In this document: positions 20,221 through 45,574 of the stretch, in pieces | Position numbering within the stretch: position 1 is the first letter of the stretch | Layout: every line of letters starts with the position of its first letter | Source of the DNA: Natroniella sulfidigena | Lineage (GTDB): Bacteria; Bacillota; Halanaerobiia; Halobacteroidales; Halobacteroidaceae | Direction of reading: 5' to 3' | Assembly: GCF_023223645.1 (NCBI RefSeq) | Contig: NZ_JALKBY010000001.1 | Span: 186,001 to 250,000, forward strand | Length of the DNA: 64,000 nucleotides | Program-made: the position numbers and the translations under genes | The notes under the pieces: generated by a model | Told to the model about the DNA's origin: nothing | Database searches by the model: none | What the model saw: the letters and a program-made list of their open reading frames with translations, nothing else

Positions 20221-20440
20221 AAATTTGAATATTCTAGATTATGATGAACAAAAGTAGTAATTAGCCACTGCTATTAAAGCGAGCTAGAGCAGGTGGGAGT
20301 CTAGCATAGTAAGCTAATGAAGGCATTTGGGAGTAATCTTTATAAAGTGGATCCTTAGTGATTGAGGATTAAGCAGGGTGGAACCGCGGGAAACCTCGTC
20401 CCTGATAGTATTAATTATACTATTAGGGAGGGGGTTTTTT
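20221..20440 (+). ncRNA. Glycine-specific T-box riboswitch
   Basis: Leader RNA that reads uncharged tRNA-Gly and allows transcription of glyQS. The conserved T-box sequence AGGGTGGAACCGCG is at 20375-20388. The specifier GGC (Gly) is at 20322-20324 in the context GAAGGCA. The competing terminator (20399-20440) has arms CCCTGATAGTAT and ATACTATTAGGG, then GGGGG and six Ts. The specifier agrees with the downstream genes. Confidence 0.93.
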
Positions 20441-37931: not shown

Positions 37932-37959
37932 CTTAGTCAGCAATTGGATATTAGATAGC

Positions 37960-38323
<364 letters not shown>

Positions 38324-38340
38324 TAAATTTAATAATCATA

Positions 38341-39605: not shown

Positions 39606-39653
39606 AATAATTTAGAGAGATGTATTGCATGCAATACATCTCTCTAAATTATT
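39606..39653. repeat. 48-base perfect palindrome between pheA and the formate dehydrogenase operon
   Basis: Two 24-base arms meet at TTGCA/TGCAA without a spacer; the outer parts are AATAATTTAGAGAG and CTCTCTAAATTATT. No T-run follows on either strand, so it is not an ordinary terminator. It lies 26 bases after pheA and about 57 bases before the operon's -35. With the promoter and leader it fills the 334-base gap. Confidence 0.75.
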
Positions 39654-39709: not shown

Positions 39710-39737
39710 TTGAAATATAAGTTTGTTATGATATAAT
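39710..39737 (+). promoter_or_regulatory. Promoter of the formate dehydrogenase operon
   Basis: TTGAAA (39710-39715), 16 bases, TATAAT (39732-39737). It leaves a leader of about 170 bases before the chosen start codon. Confidence 0.7.
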
Positions 39738-39913
39738 ATCTACAAGAAGTTGTGAATAAATGAGCTTTACATTATTATTTAAATTATCTGAAAATTAACA
39801 ATATTGAAATAATCAAAGTTTTTATTTGAAATAAAAGATTGTCTAGATTTTTAGAAGGTAATAAATTTTATTCACAACTTACAATAACTTATAAAAGTAA
39901 GGAGGGAGTAGAA

Positions 39914-42883
39914 GTGAAAGTTGATCGAAGGACATTTTTAAAGTTAACAGGTGCAGCAGCAACAACGACGACTTTTGCTGGCTTAGGTTTTAATGTGAGT
40001 CAAGCTAAAAACCAAGCAGGTGAATTGAAAACAGTTGATGCTACTGCAACAACGACTACTTGTCATTATTGTAGTGTTGCTTGTGGGATCATTGTTCATA
40101 GTTCAGATAACAAAGTGATTTATACAGAAGGTGATCCTGAAAATCCAAATAATAGGGGGGCATTATGTAGTAAAGGGTCAGCAATGCGTCAGTGGACTGA
40201 TAATGAGCAGAGAGTAACAAAGGTTAAATATCGTGCTCCTGGTAGTACTGATTGGGAAGAAAAGAGTTGGGATTGGGCTTTAGATAAAATTGCTCAGCGA
40301 GTGAAGGATACTCGTGATCAGACTTTTGTTGAAGAAGAAGATGGAATTACAGTCAATCGTACTGAAGGTATTGCCAGTATTGGTTCAGCAGTTTTAGAAA
40401 ATGAGGCTTGTTATTTATTAGTTAAGATGATGCGAGCGATGGGTTTAGTAAATATAGAGCATCATGCCCGTATCTGACACTCTTCCACGGTGGCCGGGCT
40501 TGGCCCCACGTTTGGTAGAGGAGCAATGACTAATAATTGGACAGATTATCAAAATAGTGATTGCTTTTTGATTATTGGTGGTAATCCTGCCGAGAATCAT
40601 CCAATTTCTTTTAAGTGGATTGAAAAGGCTAAAGAAGAAAGAGGAGCAAAGGTGATCAGTGTTGATCCTCGGTTTACTAGAAGTTCTAGCAAAGCCGATC
40701 TCTATGTTCCTATGAGAGCAGGCACTGATATTGCTTTTATCGGTGCGATTATTAATTATGTCTTAGAAAATGAACTCTATGATAAGGAGTATGTAGCTAA
40801 TTATACTAATGCTTCTTTCTTAGTTAATGAAGGCTTTTCTTTTGAAGATGGTTTATTTTCAGGTTATGATGAAGAAGCTCGTTCTTATGATACTTCTAGC
40901 TGGTCTTATCAAAAGGAAGATAATGGAGATTATAAGAAGGATTTAAGCTTGGAGCATCCACAGTCAGTCTTTCAACTCTTAAAAGAGCACTATTCTCGTT
41001 ATGACTTAGATAAAGCAGCAAGAGTTACTGGAGCTTCTAGAAAATTGATTGAAGAAGTAGCAGAGACTTTAGGAGAAATAGCTCTCGATCCTAGTAAGAC
41101 ATCTTCAATCTTGTATGCTATGGGAACGACACAGCATACTTTTGGAACGCAAAATGTACGTAGTTATGCTATGCTTCAATTACTGCTTGGTAATGTAGGT
41201 AAACCAGGTGGTGGAGTAAATGCTATGCGAGGAAAGTGTAATGTACAGGGATCTACTGATATGGCACTTCTGAATCATATACTTCCTGGTTATTTAGGCA
41301 GTCCAGTGGCGGCACCTGAGTATGCTACTTTAGAAGATTACTTAGAAGCTGAAACACCTGATGCGGGTTTTTGGGTCAATACCCCCAACTTCTTTGTCAG
41401 TCAGCTTAAGGCCTTTTGGGGTGATGCAGCAGATGAAGATAATGATTTTGCTTATCATTATTTATCTAAGAGAAAAGCTGGAAAAGATTATTCTCATATC
41501 GGTATCTTTGAGGATATGTATCAGGGTAAGATTAAGGGATTATTTGCTTATGGACAGAATATTATGGTTGATAGTCCTAACCTGAATAGAGTTCATGAGG
41601 CTATGAAGAATTTAGATTGGCTAGTAGTGGCTGATCCTTTTGAAACAGAGACTGCAGCTTTTTGGAAAGAAGAAGCAGGGGTTGAGCCAGAGACTATAGA
41701 TACAGAAGTATTCCTGTTACCAACAGCAGTTTCTTTTGAAAAGGAAGGTTCATATACTGATAGTGGACGTGTAATTCAATGGAAGTGGAAAGCTGTAGAT
41801 CCACCTGGAGAAGCTAAAGAGGATCTTTGGATTATTGATCAGTTGTTTAAGCGGATTAGAGAACAATATCAAGGTAGTGATAAAGAGGCAGATAAGCCAA
41901 TTCTTGAATTAGATTGGGATTATGGTGCTACTCCAGATGCAAATGATGTAGCTAGGGAAATAAATGGTTATGATACTAGAACTGGCAAGCCGATTGCTGG
42001 CTTTGGTAATTTGAAAGATGATGGTACTACTGCTAGTGGTAACTGGATTTATTGTGGTATGTTTACAGAAGATGATGAAAATAGAACAAAGAGTAGAGAT
42101 AATAGTGACCCTAGTGGAATGGGGGTTTATCCAAACTGGGCTTTCGCTTGGCCTGCTAACCGAAGAATTATATACAATAGAGCTTCGGCTGATTTAGATG
42201 GTAAACCTTGGCACAGTGAAAAGGCTTATATTTGGTGGGATGGTTCCGAGTGGACTGGTTATGATGTTCCTGACTTCGGGCCAACAGTTGAGCCTGACAG
42301 TGAAGCTGGAAGAAATCCATTCATTATGCGACCAGAAGGTGTGGGCTGTATTTTTGCCTTAAGAGCAGAAGGACCGTTTCCTGAGCACTATGAGCCTTAC
42401 GAATCACCAACTGAAAATCAGTTTTCTTCAGTACAGTATAATCCAGCAGTCAAGCTTTGGGATGGTTCCAATAGAGGAGAAGCTGATGATTATCCATATG
42501 TAGCTACTACTTATCGTTTATCAGAGCATTATCAAAGTGGTGCTATGTCTCGTAATATTCCGTGGCTAGCTGAGTTAGTACCAGAACTTTTTGTAGAGAT
42601 TGGTACTGAACTAGCAGCACAAAAAGGAATAAAATCTGGTGATAAGGTGGAAGTCAGTTCTATTCGCGGAAAGATTGAGGCTAAAGCATTAGTTACACCT
42701 CGAGTCAAGACAATGTTGATTAATGGCAAAAGAACACATCATGTTGGTATTCCTTGGCACTTTGGCTATAAAGGATTGGTTACTGGAGGATCAGGAAATA
42801 TTTTAACACCAACCATAGGAGATGCCAATACGACGATACCTGAATATAAAGGCTTCCTGGTTAATGTAAGGAGGTTGGGATAA
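39914..42883 (+). CDS. Formate dehydrogenase, selenocysteine-containing catalytic subunit
   Basis: Molybdo/tungsto-pterin enzyme oxidising formate to CO2. About 989 residues when the TGA at 40475-40477 (residue 188) is read as Sec: the frame continues unbroken and the context ARI-U-HSSTVAGLGPTFGRG matches FdnG-type enzymes. A twin-arginine signal (VDRRTFLKLTG) gives export, a [4Fe-4S] motif CHYCSVACG...CSKG follows, and the C-terminal MPT-binding domain ends the chain. GTG 39914 follows AAGGAGGGAG; the frame is open upstream to 39839 without a site. Followed by its partner subunits. Confidence 0.95.
40475..40510 (+). promoter_or_regulatory. UGA selenocysteine codon with bacterial SECIS-like hairpin
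   Basis: Beginning 11 bases after the UGA, CGGTGG (40488-40493) and CCCCACG (40504-40510) plus inner GGCC/GGCC pairs fold into a stem with a G-rich apical loop (GGGCTT). Position and shape fit a SelB-binding SECIS. The selA, selB and selC genes must lie outside this window. Confidence 0.75.
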
Positions 42884-43701
42884 TGCCAAAATCTATACTT
42901 ATTGACGTTAGTAAATGTCATGGTTGTCGGGGTTGTCAGGTTGCTTGTAAGAACTGGAATGACCTAGAAGCAACCCTAACTCAATTTGAAGGCTCGTATG
43001 AAAATCCTACTAGATTGAGTGCTCAAACTTGGACTAGAGTTAGATTTATAGAGCAAACAGATGGTGGATTAAGATTTTTATTTCGAAAAGATACTTGTAA
43101 GCATTGTACTGATGCTAGCTGTATGGCAGTTTGTCCTGCAAATGCGATTTATCGGAAAGATAAAACTGGTGCAGTTATAATTAATAGAGATGAGTGTATT
43201 GGTTGTAAAAATTGTGTTACAGCTTGCCCTTATCAAATACCTCAGTATAGTAAAACAGCAGGTACCGTAGCAAAATGTCACCTTTGTAATGAGGGTGATA
43301 GAGATCGAATTGGTAATGGATTACAGCCAGCTTGTGTAAGTAGTTGTCCTACTGGGGCACTTATTTTTGGAGATAGAGCAGAGTTGCTTAATGATGCTAA
43401 AGCTAGGGTTAATCATTTAGCTCGCCAAGGAACAGAAGCTTATGTCTATGGAGAGAAGGAATTGTCGGGATTGAATGTCTTTTATATCTTAGATGAACCG
43501 TCAGAAACTTATGGCTTACCTGCTAAACCAACATTTACTGATAACGATGTTTTTTGGTTAGCTAAGTGGGCCAACATACTCTTTGGTACTGGTTTGTTAA
43601 CAGCAATTCCTTATTATCTATTCTTCAACAGTGAAGAAGAACCGCAAGATTTAGAAGCAGACGATGAGGAAAGTAATTCTAGTGAAAAGGAGGTTAGTTA
43701 A
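42883..43701 (+). CDS. Formate dehydrogenase iron-sulfur subunit
   Basis: 272 residues carrying electrons from the catalytic subunit to the membrane. Four [4Fe-4S] cysteine sets are visible: CHGCRGCQVAC, CKHCTDASCMAVCP, CIGCKNCVTACP and CHLCNEGD...CVSSCP. A C-terminal membrane span (ILFGTGLLTAIPYYLFF) anchors it, followed by an acidic tail. The start ATG overlaps the catalytic subunit's stop (TAATG). Confidence 0.95.
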   Translation: MPKSILIDVSKCHGCRGCQVACKNWNDLEATLTQFEGSYENPTRLSAQTWTRVRFIEQTDGGLRFLFRKDTCKHCTDASCMAVCPANAIYRKDKTGAVIINRDECIGCKNCVTACPYQIPQYSKTAGTVAKCHLCNEGDRDRIGNGLQPACVSSCPTGALIFGDRAELLNDAKARVNHLARQGTEAYVYGEKELSGLNVFYILDEPSETYGLPAKPTFTDNDVFWLAKWANILFGTGLLTAIPYYLFFNSEEEPQDLEADDEESNSSEKEVS

Positions 43702-43702
43702 G

Positions 43703-44554
43703 ATGGAATGGGGTTTTAGTATTGCTAGTTATATGGTTTTGAGTGGATTGGCTGCTGGTACTTTTTTTAGCGGGACTATGGCAGAAATCTTTAGTAAGGG
43801 CAAGTATAAGAGATTGCAAAAATATGCCTCCTACACTAGTTTGGTTTTAATGCCAATAGCTCTGTTGATATTAGCAATCCACTTGGGTCAGACTTTTCGT
43901 TTTTGGCGGGTAATGACTAATTTCAATTCAACATCAGTCATTTCTCTTGGAGCTTGGATAAGTACGGTCTTTACTATTTGTGTCTTTCTTAGTGCAGCAA
44001 GTTGGTATCTAGGTTGGAAAGATGGATTGCGTAAACTATTTTCCTATATTGCATTACCTTTTTCTTTTTTAGTTGCTGGTTATACAGGAAATCTATTAAG
44101 CCATACCGCTGTTCCATTGTGGAGAGCTACTCCTTATTTAGGAGTTCTGTTTATGATTTCATCTGCTGCTGCTGGTTTGGCTGTCTTGCTTGCTGTGGCT
44201 ACTTCTGCTGGTGATGTTAAAGAGCGAACTTTAGGGCTTATGGCTCGAGCAACTATAGCAACAGTTATTATTAAAATAGTAGTTAATGTAGTCTTTATTA
44301 ATATTTTAGCATTAACTAATCTTGAATTATTATCTTCAGGACAAGTGACGGGTCAAGTAATTGGCTTTTTATTGAGTATAATAGCTATAGTTATTCTTGC
44401 TCCTTTAGCTAAAGATTTATTTCATGAACGGGTTAATCCAGCTAATATGCCGAAAGTATCGACTCTGATTACATTAGCTGCAATGATAATATTAGTTGAG
44501 GCATTTCTCTTGCGATATGAGATATTGACTGCTCAATTATATTGGTTTAATTAA
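43703..44554 (+). CDS. NrfD-type membrane subunit of formate dehydrogenase
   Basis: 283 residues with about eight hydrophobic segments, starting MEWGFSIASYMVLSGLAAG, the typical NrfD/PsrC opening. Such subunits pass electrons to the quinone pool or an equivalent carrier without haem. ATG 43703 follows AAAAGGAGGTTAG; the frame is open upstream to ATG-less codons from 43664 that overlap the previous gene. The presence of NrfD rather than a FdnI cytochrome b is notable. Confidence 0.9.
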   Translation: MEWGFSIASYMVLSGLAAGTFFSGTMAEIFSKGKYKRLQKYASYTSLVLMPIALLILAIHLGQTFRFWRVMTNFNSTSVISLGAWISTVFTICVFLSAASWYLGWKDGLRKLFSYIALPFSFLVAGYTGNLLSHTAVPLWRATPYLGVLFMISSAAAGLAVLLAVATSAGDVKERTLGLMARATIATVIIKIVVNVVFINILALTNLELLSSGQVTGQVIGFLLSIIAIVILAPLAKDLFHERVNPANMPKVSTLITLAAMIILVEAFLLRYEILTAQLYWFN

Positions 44555-44618: not shown

Positions 44619-45491
44619 TTGAATACTGAACTAAAATTGAACATGGTTGAATTACCAACCGAATTGATCAAATTCATTACAGAAACAGAAGATATAACTA
44701 ATCAGATTGAGTTTGAAGTAGAAAAAGAGATAATTGCAGATGAAGTTATTAAGGAGCATAAGGAGAAGAAGACTCCTTTATTTCATCTCCAAACTCCAAA
44801 GATAGAAGGAAGATTGTTTAAAACTGCTTTTTCTAAAGTTTGTGAATTGTTACCTGATAAGCAAGATGATTCTTTAAGTAAGCAATTTAATCAACTTTTA
44901 GCTGAAGATAATCAGTTTTGGGGCCAACTTGGGCGAAAGATGATTTTACAACAAGAAGATGTGATTAAGGAATTAACTATTGAAAAAGAGATTCCAATAT
45001 CTTCACTGCTACTTGTGTTGCTTCAGTCTTTACGAATATTCTTAAAAGAGTATAGTCAATTTTATCAACGCTACCTTGAGCAGGGGGAATGGAAAGAAGA
45101 AAAATGTCCTCTCTGTGGTTGGCCTCCTTTAATCGGACATTTTATTGCTGGAGATGATACTTTTGGTACTCAAAATTCCGCAGGGGCCAAATCTCTTTTC
45201 TGTCCTCTTTGTGATACAGATTGGCTGTATAGTAGGTTACATTGTTCTAGCTGTGGAGAGCAATTTTCCAAAGGTAAGCAGAACTATTTTTATGTAGAAG
45301 GTAATGATGGGTTGATTGTTAACCACTGTTCAAAGTGTAATTCTTATTTGAAGATTTTAGATGAAAGGAAGTTGAACCTTACCTCCCCAAAATCACCTTG
45401 GATGTTATATCTAGAAACACTTCATTTGGATTTTTTAGCTGAGAAAAGAGACTATAGTAGTAATCTTAATCTTTTTAATGAGAAAAATTAG
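44619..45491 (+). CDS. fdhE: Formate dehydrogenase accessory protein FdhE
   Basis: 290-residue cytosolic factor needed for maturation of exported formate dehydrogenases. Four CxxC pairs (CPLCGWPP, CPLCDTDW, CSSCGEQ, CSKCNS) form the paired rubredoxin-like metal sites of FdhE. TTG start after AAAGGGGGTTG. It completes the operon. Confidence 0.92.
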   Translation: MNTELKLNMVELPTELIKFITETEDITNQIEFEVEKEIIADEVIKEHKEKKTPLFHLQTPKIEGRLFKTAFSKVCELLPDKQDDSLSKQFNQLLAEDNQFWGQLGRKMILQQEDVIKELTIEKEIPISSLLLVLLQSLRIFLKEYSQFYQRYLEQGEWKEEKCPLCGWPPLIGHFIAGDDTFGTQNSAGAKSLFCPLCDTDWLYSRLHCSSCGEQFSKGKQNYFYVEGNDGLIVNHCSKCNSYLKILDERKLNLTSPKSPWMLYLETLHLDFLAEKRDYSSNLNLFNEKN

Positions 45492-45507: not shown

Positions 45508-45537
45508 AAGGAGACCAGGTTTTAACCTGGTCTCCTT
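45508..45537 (+). terminator. Strong hairpin after fdhE
   Basis: 14-base perfect arms AAGGAGACCAGGTT and AACCTGGTCTCCTT with a 2-base gap; TT only at the 3' side. Operon end. Confidence 0.65.
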
Positions 45538-45553
45538 ATCAGTAAGGAAATGT

Positions 45554-45574
45554 GTTGCCAGAGGCAACTTTTTT
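45554..45574 (+). terminator. Short terminator GTTGCC/GGCAAC with T-run
   Basis: GTTGCC-AGA-GGCAAC followed by six Ts; near-twin of the hairpin at 23844-23864. The 317-base fdhE-yebC gap also holds a promoter and a hexamer element. Confidence 0.75.

Follow-up and report, generated by a model that had tools for sequence, protein, structure and literature searches.

Formate dehydrogenases (FDHs) with an NrfD subunit have been named FqoABC, tentatively and from genomes, and are called 'uncharacterized' in the paper that names them (Calisto and Pereira 2021, PMC8076601). Its three groups of FqoC are placed in Actinobacteria, Chlorobi, Crenarchaeota, Chloroflexi and Deltaproteobacteria, and the word selenocysteine is absent from its main text. 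In 2014, a Tat-motif FDH with a 10-helix NrfD-like protein (Desgi_1522-1524), as well as a second, possibly confurcating FDH, was described in Desulfotomaculum gibsoniae (PMC4148979). Energy coupling by NrfD subunits is backed by measurements on QrcABCD and by argument for other complexes (PMC13059093, PMC10772276). Formate:quinone enzymes of acetogens are discussed in PMC8578096, whose accessible text never mentions NrfD. In the literature on FDHs with NrfD, or on Halobacteroidaceae with FDH, which included a metagenome paper (PMC4475827), we found no title or abstract about the operon described here.

We analysed a stretch of 64,000 nucleotides from Natroniella sulfidigena (the window; positions 186,001 to 250,000 of contig NZ_JALKBY010000001.1), which carries the operon listed in Table 1. 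Like FqoABC, the operon has FdnGH-like A and B subunits and an NrfD-like C subunit with eight predicted helices, but it belongs to Bacillota, a phylum that the accessible text of the FqoABC paper does not name among the FqoC groups. As in D. gibsoniae, also a Firmicute, a Tat-motif FDH stands beside a membrane protein of the NrfD type and the genome has a second FDH, although the NrfD-like protein there is reported with ten helices and our model has eight. The sequence-only reading had proposed that this combination defines a distinct energy-conserving formate module; the combination was, however, already in print for FqoABC and D. gibsoniae (PMC8076601, PMC4148979). E. coli FDH-N (FdnGHI, 1kqf) resembles the operon in its catalytic subunit, and its FdnH matches FdhB to near the C-terminus, but its anchor is a cytochrome b, whereas the window operon has NrfD and no gamma subunit. 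The closest named relatives, selenocysteine (Sec) FDHs from Bacillus/Mesobacillus and from Heliorestis (L025-L031), have a catalytic subunit 55-58% identical to that of the window, with TGA, together with FdhB and FdhE-like genes; their third gene, in contrast, is not NrfD, and is a PF01292 cytochrome b in the three that were scanned (L025, L029 and L031).

Table 1. Features of the operon and its borders (window positions).
Feature	Position	Strand	Basis
Terminator-like palindrome after pheA	39608..39651	+	Inverted repeat with a stem of 20 pairs and a T-rich tail; by match to consensus only
Sigma-70-like promoter TTGAAA-16-TATAAT	39710..39737	+	11/12 matches, TG before second hexamer; consensus match only
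fdhA, predicted Tat-exported, Sec-containing FDH catalytic subunit	39914..42883	+	TIGR01553; closest solved chain 1h0h_A
In-frame TGA, predicted Sec 188	40475..40477	+	Aligned to Sec of 1h0h; TGA in relatives
Predicted SECIS element, apical hairpin 40489-40507, bulged U 40491	40472..40530	+	RF01989, codon resampling, covariation
fdhB, four-cluster ferredoxin-like subunit, FdnH-like C-terminal hydrophobic stretch	42883..43701	+	1kqf_B best, 16 Cys
nrfD, membrane anchor, eight predicted helices	43703..44554	+	PF03916, predicted model, fold comparison
fdhE-like accessory gene	44619..45491	+	TIGR01562, four CxxC, position in relatives
Terminator-like inverted repeats closing operon	45508..45568	+	Inverted repeat; T run

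The fdhA frame has 989 codons, with AGGAGGG as a ribosome site ahead of its GTG start, and is interrupted by a single TGA at codon 188; in the mechanical list of open reading frames it appears as two pieces (39839-40477 and 40490-42883). The product is a member of TIGR01553 (formate dehydrogenase-N alpha; 1324.5 bits, cut-off 814.2). It carries a Tat signal (RRTFLK), an Fe4S4 motif (CHYCSVAC plus C85) and R439 in GVNAMRG, and has the Sec/Cys position, Fe4S4 cysteines and Tat signal of FdnG-type Sec enzymes. Among solved structures it is closest to D. gigas FdhA (1h0h), with E. coli FdnG also matched, and codon 188 aligns with the X (Sec) of 1h0h, which bears out the sequence-only reading that the only TGA stands at the Sec place of FdnG-type enzymes. 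This catalytic subunit is common: at E 1e-200, 94 of 398 Bacillota genomes have a match. We compared the window with 140 related loci (141 rows in all, 137 distinct catalytic subunits): the Sec column holds TGA in 128 of them and Cys in 11, and in one (L154), which has an extra stop, the codon was left unread. A smaller set of 80 named relatives divides into 74 with TGA and six with Cys. The lone interruption exactly at this column, the TGA shared with so many relatives and the intact downstream genes all argue against a true stop, or a mutation in a decaying fdhA.

The full Sec machinery in the genome speaks against decay as well. The sequence-only reading had staked its claim on selB and selC, and both are present on contig 28, clustered with selA, selD and yedF: SelA precedes SelB, tRNA-Sec (selC) lies less than 100 bases behind SelB, and YedF and then SelD follow. 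SelA (617.6 bits), SelB (391 bits), SelD (401 bits) and tRNA-Sec (67.3) all score above cut-off. SelD is itself a selenoprotein, with an in-frame TGA (SG-U-AAK; L105:11970-13040), and the predicted hairpin behind this TGA has the loop CUCA, with no initial G, unlike the usual bacterial SECIS.

A hairpin with a G-rich loop had been reported 11 bases past the TGA of fdhA, and this proved exact; the apical loop is GGGCUU, or GGCU when the G-U pair that closes it in the predicted fold is counted. The bacterial SECIS model, as given in the accessible text of PMC13188914, has an apical loop of 3-9 nt with G at its first or second position, on an upper stem of 4 bp or more, at a distance of 16-37 nt from the UGA. 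The window agrees with it in the loop in either form, in its GGCC/GGCC stem and in its distance of 18-19 nt past the UGA. Three observations would favour a true stop or decay. The Rfam model SECIS_3 (RF01989) matched at full length (1-59) with 41.7 bits (E 1.4e-8), under its gathering score of 63; the hairpin was not unusual against dinucleotide shuffles at four lengths (z 0.05, -0.70, 0.06 and 1.01); and the loop deviates from GGUCU, having G at position 24, which only one of the 74 relatives shares, where 42 of the 74 have GGUCU (U24). In this genome, the second Sec FDH does carry the GGUCU loop.

The shuffle test gave no signal because shuffling retains the G+C composition of the hairpin, which is itself the anomaly: GC3 over the first 12 codons of the hairpin stretch is 0.75, the highest of any 12-codon stretch in the gene, versus 0.239 for the gene. 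We replaced it by synonymous recoding, keeping the peptide and drawing 5000 times from the gene's own codon usage. None of the 5000 recodings was as stable as the apical part (-10.6 kcal/mol), and five were as stable as bases 1-46 (-15.7 kcal/mol), which suggests that synonymous sites behind the TGA are kept for the hairpin and argues against decay. Pair 18:30, numbered from the U of UGA and formed by two third-codon places, is TA in 17, CG in 15, GC in eight and unpaired in two of the 42 relatives' rows whose loop is GGUCU. We also aligned 35 rows (32 distinct) picked for GGUCU-like loops with the window and the second FDH; 18 stem cells changed on both sides, versus 4.6 in shuffles and 0-4 when the stem was slid, an excess to be read with the caveat that kinship among rows can beat shuffles without any structure. 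Further pair types in this alignment were not in excess (5 versus 4.7 in shuffles). The four-pair stem occurs in 52 of the 74 TGA rows and in none of the six Cys rows, and 20 of the 74 have the sequence GCUCU at the hairpin site, which folds in another register. The sequence thus indicates that a SECIS lies behind the TGA and that UGA 188 is read as Sec; a true stop or a decaying gene seems very improbable to us.

FdhB matched FdnH (1kqf_B) over residues 6-264 of 272 (E 2.5e-54). In FdnGHI the C-terminal hydrophobic stretch of FdnH accompanies the cytochrome b subunit. In the window, a gene with its own ribosome site follows between fdhB and fdhE; its frame is open from 43664, and AAAGGAGG favours a start at 43703. 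The product scores 79.7 bits on PF03916 (cut-off 25.8) and is the sole match to this family in the genome. Searching the PDB by sequence, with the single NrfD or with a profile of 11, gave no match, so that fold comparison was needed. The predicted model (AlphaFold) has eight long helices (mean pLDDT 79.7), and the comparison gave three matches at E 0.001 or better. Its fold neighbours, at sequence identities of 11-19%, are chain C of alternative complex III (8k9e_C, 6lod_C, 6f0k_C) and PsrC with menaquinone (2vpw_C), which are the nearest solved folds but serve alternative complex III and polysulfide reductase. Arg271 is invariant (19/19 and 11/11 NrfD rows), and may correspond to the arginine known in the literature as the 'gatekeeper' (PMC10772276). 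At residue 60, the NrfD of the window has HLG and nine relatives from one Bacillota family (f17) have DLG; L085 also has His. The FdhE-like product falls below the cut-offs of TIGR01562 (47.5 bits versus 187.65) and PF24859 (24.9 versus 27) despite its four CxxC motifs, and its gene is third after fdhA in many relatives. The proposal of a Tat-exported Sec subunit, NrfD and FdhE in one operon therefore stands in all its parts, with FdhE as a weak, sub-cut-off match.

The genome also encodes TatC, FdhD, MoaA and a MoeA-like protein. Menaquinone, put forward in the sequence-only reading as an electron acceptor to check for, has its synthesis genes here: MenB, MenA, MenD, MenE and MenC each score above a curated cut-off, and an isochorismate synthase is above that of TIGR00543 and below that of NF005459. 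Candidate terminal reductases comprise a DmsA/YnfE type above cut-off and PhsA-like and NapA-like proteins below theirs. The first ~210 residues of the DmsA/YnfE-type protein (L109:895-3876 minus, contig 9) match TorD/DmsD chaperones, making it an apparent fusion of enzyme and chaperone.

We consider it quite likely that the operon encodes an Fdn-like formate:menaquinone oxidoreductase of the FqoABC kind, in which a heme-free NrfD-type subunit serves as anchor and probably ties the enzyme to the membrane quinone pool. SelB and tRNA-Sec would decode UGA 188 as Sec, aided by the hairpin behind it, and FdhE and FdhD would assist the loading and checking of the Mo/W cofactor. The folded FdhAB would be exported via Tat, and formate oxidised outside. 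The Fe4S4 clusters, one in FdhA and four in FdhB, would then carry the electrons to a menaquinone that NrfD binds close to the outer face, and terminal reductases encoded elsewhere would reoxidise the menaquinol. We infer the complex itself, its quinone acceptor, its direction and any proton uptake by NrfD. Counting against this reading are the SECIS score under the gathering threshold, G24 in the loop, the null dinucleotide shuffles, His60 of NrfD, the FdnH-like C-terminus of FdhB, the sub-cut-off FdhE matches and a cytochrome b on contig 12, discussed below.

It is also conceivable, though improbable, that the complex runs chiefly in the opposite direction or needs no quinone, serving to make formate from CO2 or to link formate with hydrogen. 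Such a role would find a parallel in the OHR complex of Dehalococcoides, which has an NrfD-like subunit and no quinones (PMC10772276). It would also fit the second Sec FDH of the genome, on contig 12 (L106:10472-13174 minus), which has NuoE/NuoF-like neighbours and no N-terminal Tat motif. However, the menaquinone genes argue against this role, menaquinol is not a strong enough reductant for CO2, and the Tat signal of FdhA places catalysis outside.

Contig 12 also encodes an orphan FDH-gamma-like cytochrome b (C12:110530-111195; L217:10531-11196), which weakens the earlier claim that the formate system here is separate from the cytochrome b type. This orphan lies near tatC and Mo-cofactor genes. 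Because of it, FdhAB could dock on a cytochrome b in a classic Fdn-type redox loop, with NrfD as an alternative or secondary partner; we consider this unlikely. In favour of docking, FdhB is like FdnH nearly to its C-terminus, and the orphan's 81.8 bits on TIGR01583 are on a par with the 81.5 bits of the cytochrome b linked to the FDH in Bacillus sp. (L025). On a profile built from 53 FDH-linked cytochromes b the orphan reaches 136 bits, and the closest match to FDH alpha on contig 12 lies ~54 kb away. On the other hand, the orphan is under the TIGR01583 cut-off of 115.85 and under all 53 FDH-linked rows on the profile (170.6-305 bits), nrfD with its own ribosome site sits within the operon, and the order fdhB-nrfD-fdhE recurs in 18 other loci.

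We compared anchors over the 141 rows: 53 have cytochrome b and 43 NrfD, neither was found in 34, and in 11 the contig is cut. Genes scanned among the 34 gave no family in L053 and TatC in L066. The 18 loci with the complete order fdhA-fdhB-nrfD-fdhE (two of them the same locus twice) include nine from five genomes of family f17, with short NrfDs of 291-373 residues; the family is not uniform, as L169 carries cytochrome b. In the NrfD tree, the window, the f17 loci and L085 split from 33 other, mostly longer NrfDs with 100/100, the window branch being long, and by these sequences the short NrfD class of the window appears as one apart from the longer class. Trees were built on samples of the 141 rows (85 in the first alpha tree, then 44 chosen for alpha and 37 for alpha plus beta). 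Alpha-only trees put the window among cytochrome-b rows (87/91 in the 44-row tree), a placement that pointed to repeated anchor swapping; a single clade of window and f17 was not rejected by alpha alone (AU p 0.0697), and in the alpha-plus-beta tree the window and the nine f17 loci formed one clade (92/88, not starred). Repeated anchor swapping between the window and f17 was dropped on these last two results.

The enzyme was found in one of 13 genomes of the order at E 1e-150, that of the window itself. The operon is flanked by pheA and yebC, which are direct neighbours in ten of the 12 other genomes; in the remaining two, one of them of the same genus, the contig starts just before yebC. At its end lie a 14-bp perfect inverted repeat (45508-45537) and a terminator-like element with a T run (45554-45568). 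With terminator-like repeats on both sides, a promoter-like site of its own and the empty pheA-yebC gap elsewhere, the operon has the look of an insertion, for which horizontal transfer is the simplest explanation. The window also contains a class A RNase P RNA (37959-38327) and a T-box leader (20235-20406), both above the Rfam gathering score.

Enzymes of this kind were known before. The novelty here lies chiefly in the location, in the pheA-yebC gap of an order where the enzyme was found in one of 13 genomes, in the apparent arrival and in the short NrfD class. We give about even chances to the following, taken as a whole: that FDHs of the Fdn kind gained NrfD anchors more than once, that the Bacillota line, with a short eight-helix NrfD distant from the longer anchors of Geobacter-type FDHs, sits in a clade whose remaining members have cytochrome b, and that a complete selenoprotein operon moved into an order otherwise seemingly without it, where it met a leftover FDH-type cytochrome b. 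The finding overturns nothing known. For the order it brings to light a well-supported selenoprotein and a probable route of formate respiration, and the operon-free sites in relatives make this a clean case in which to ask what an anchor of the NrfD type offers over one of the cytochrome b type.
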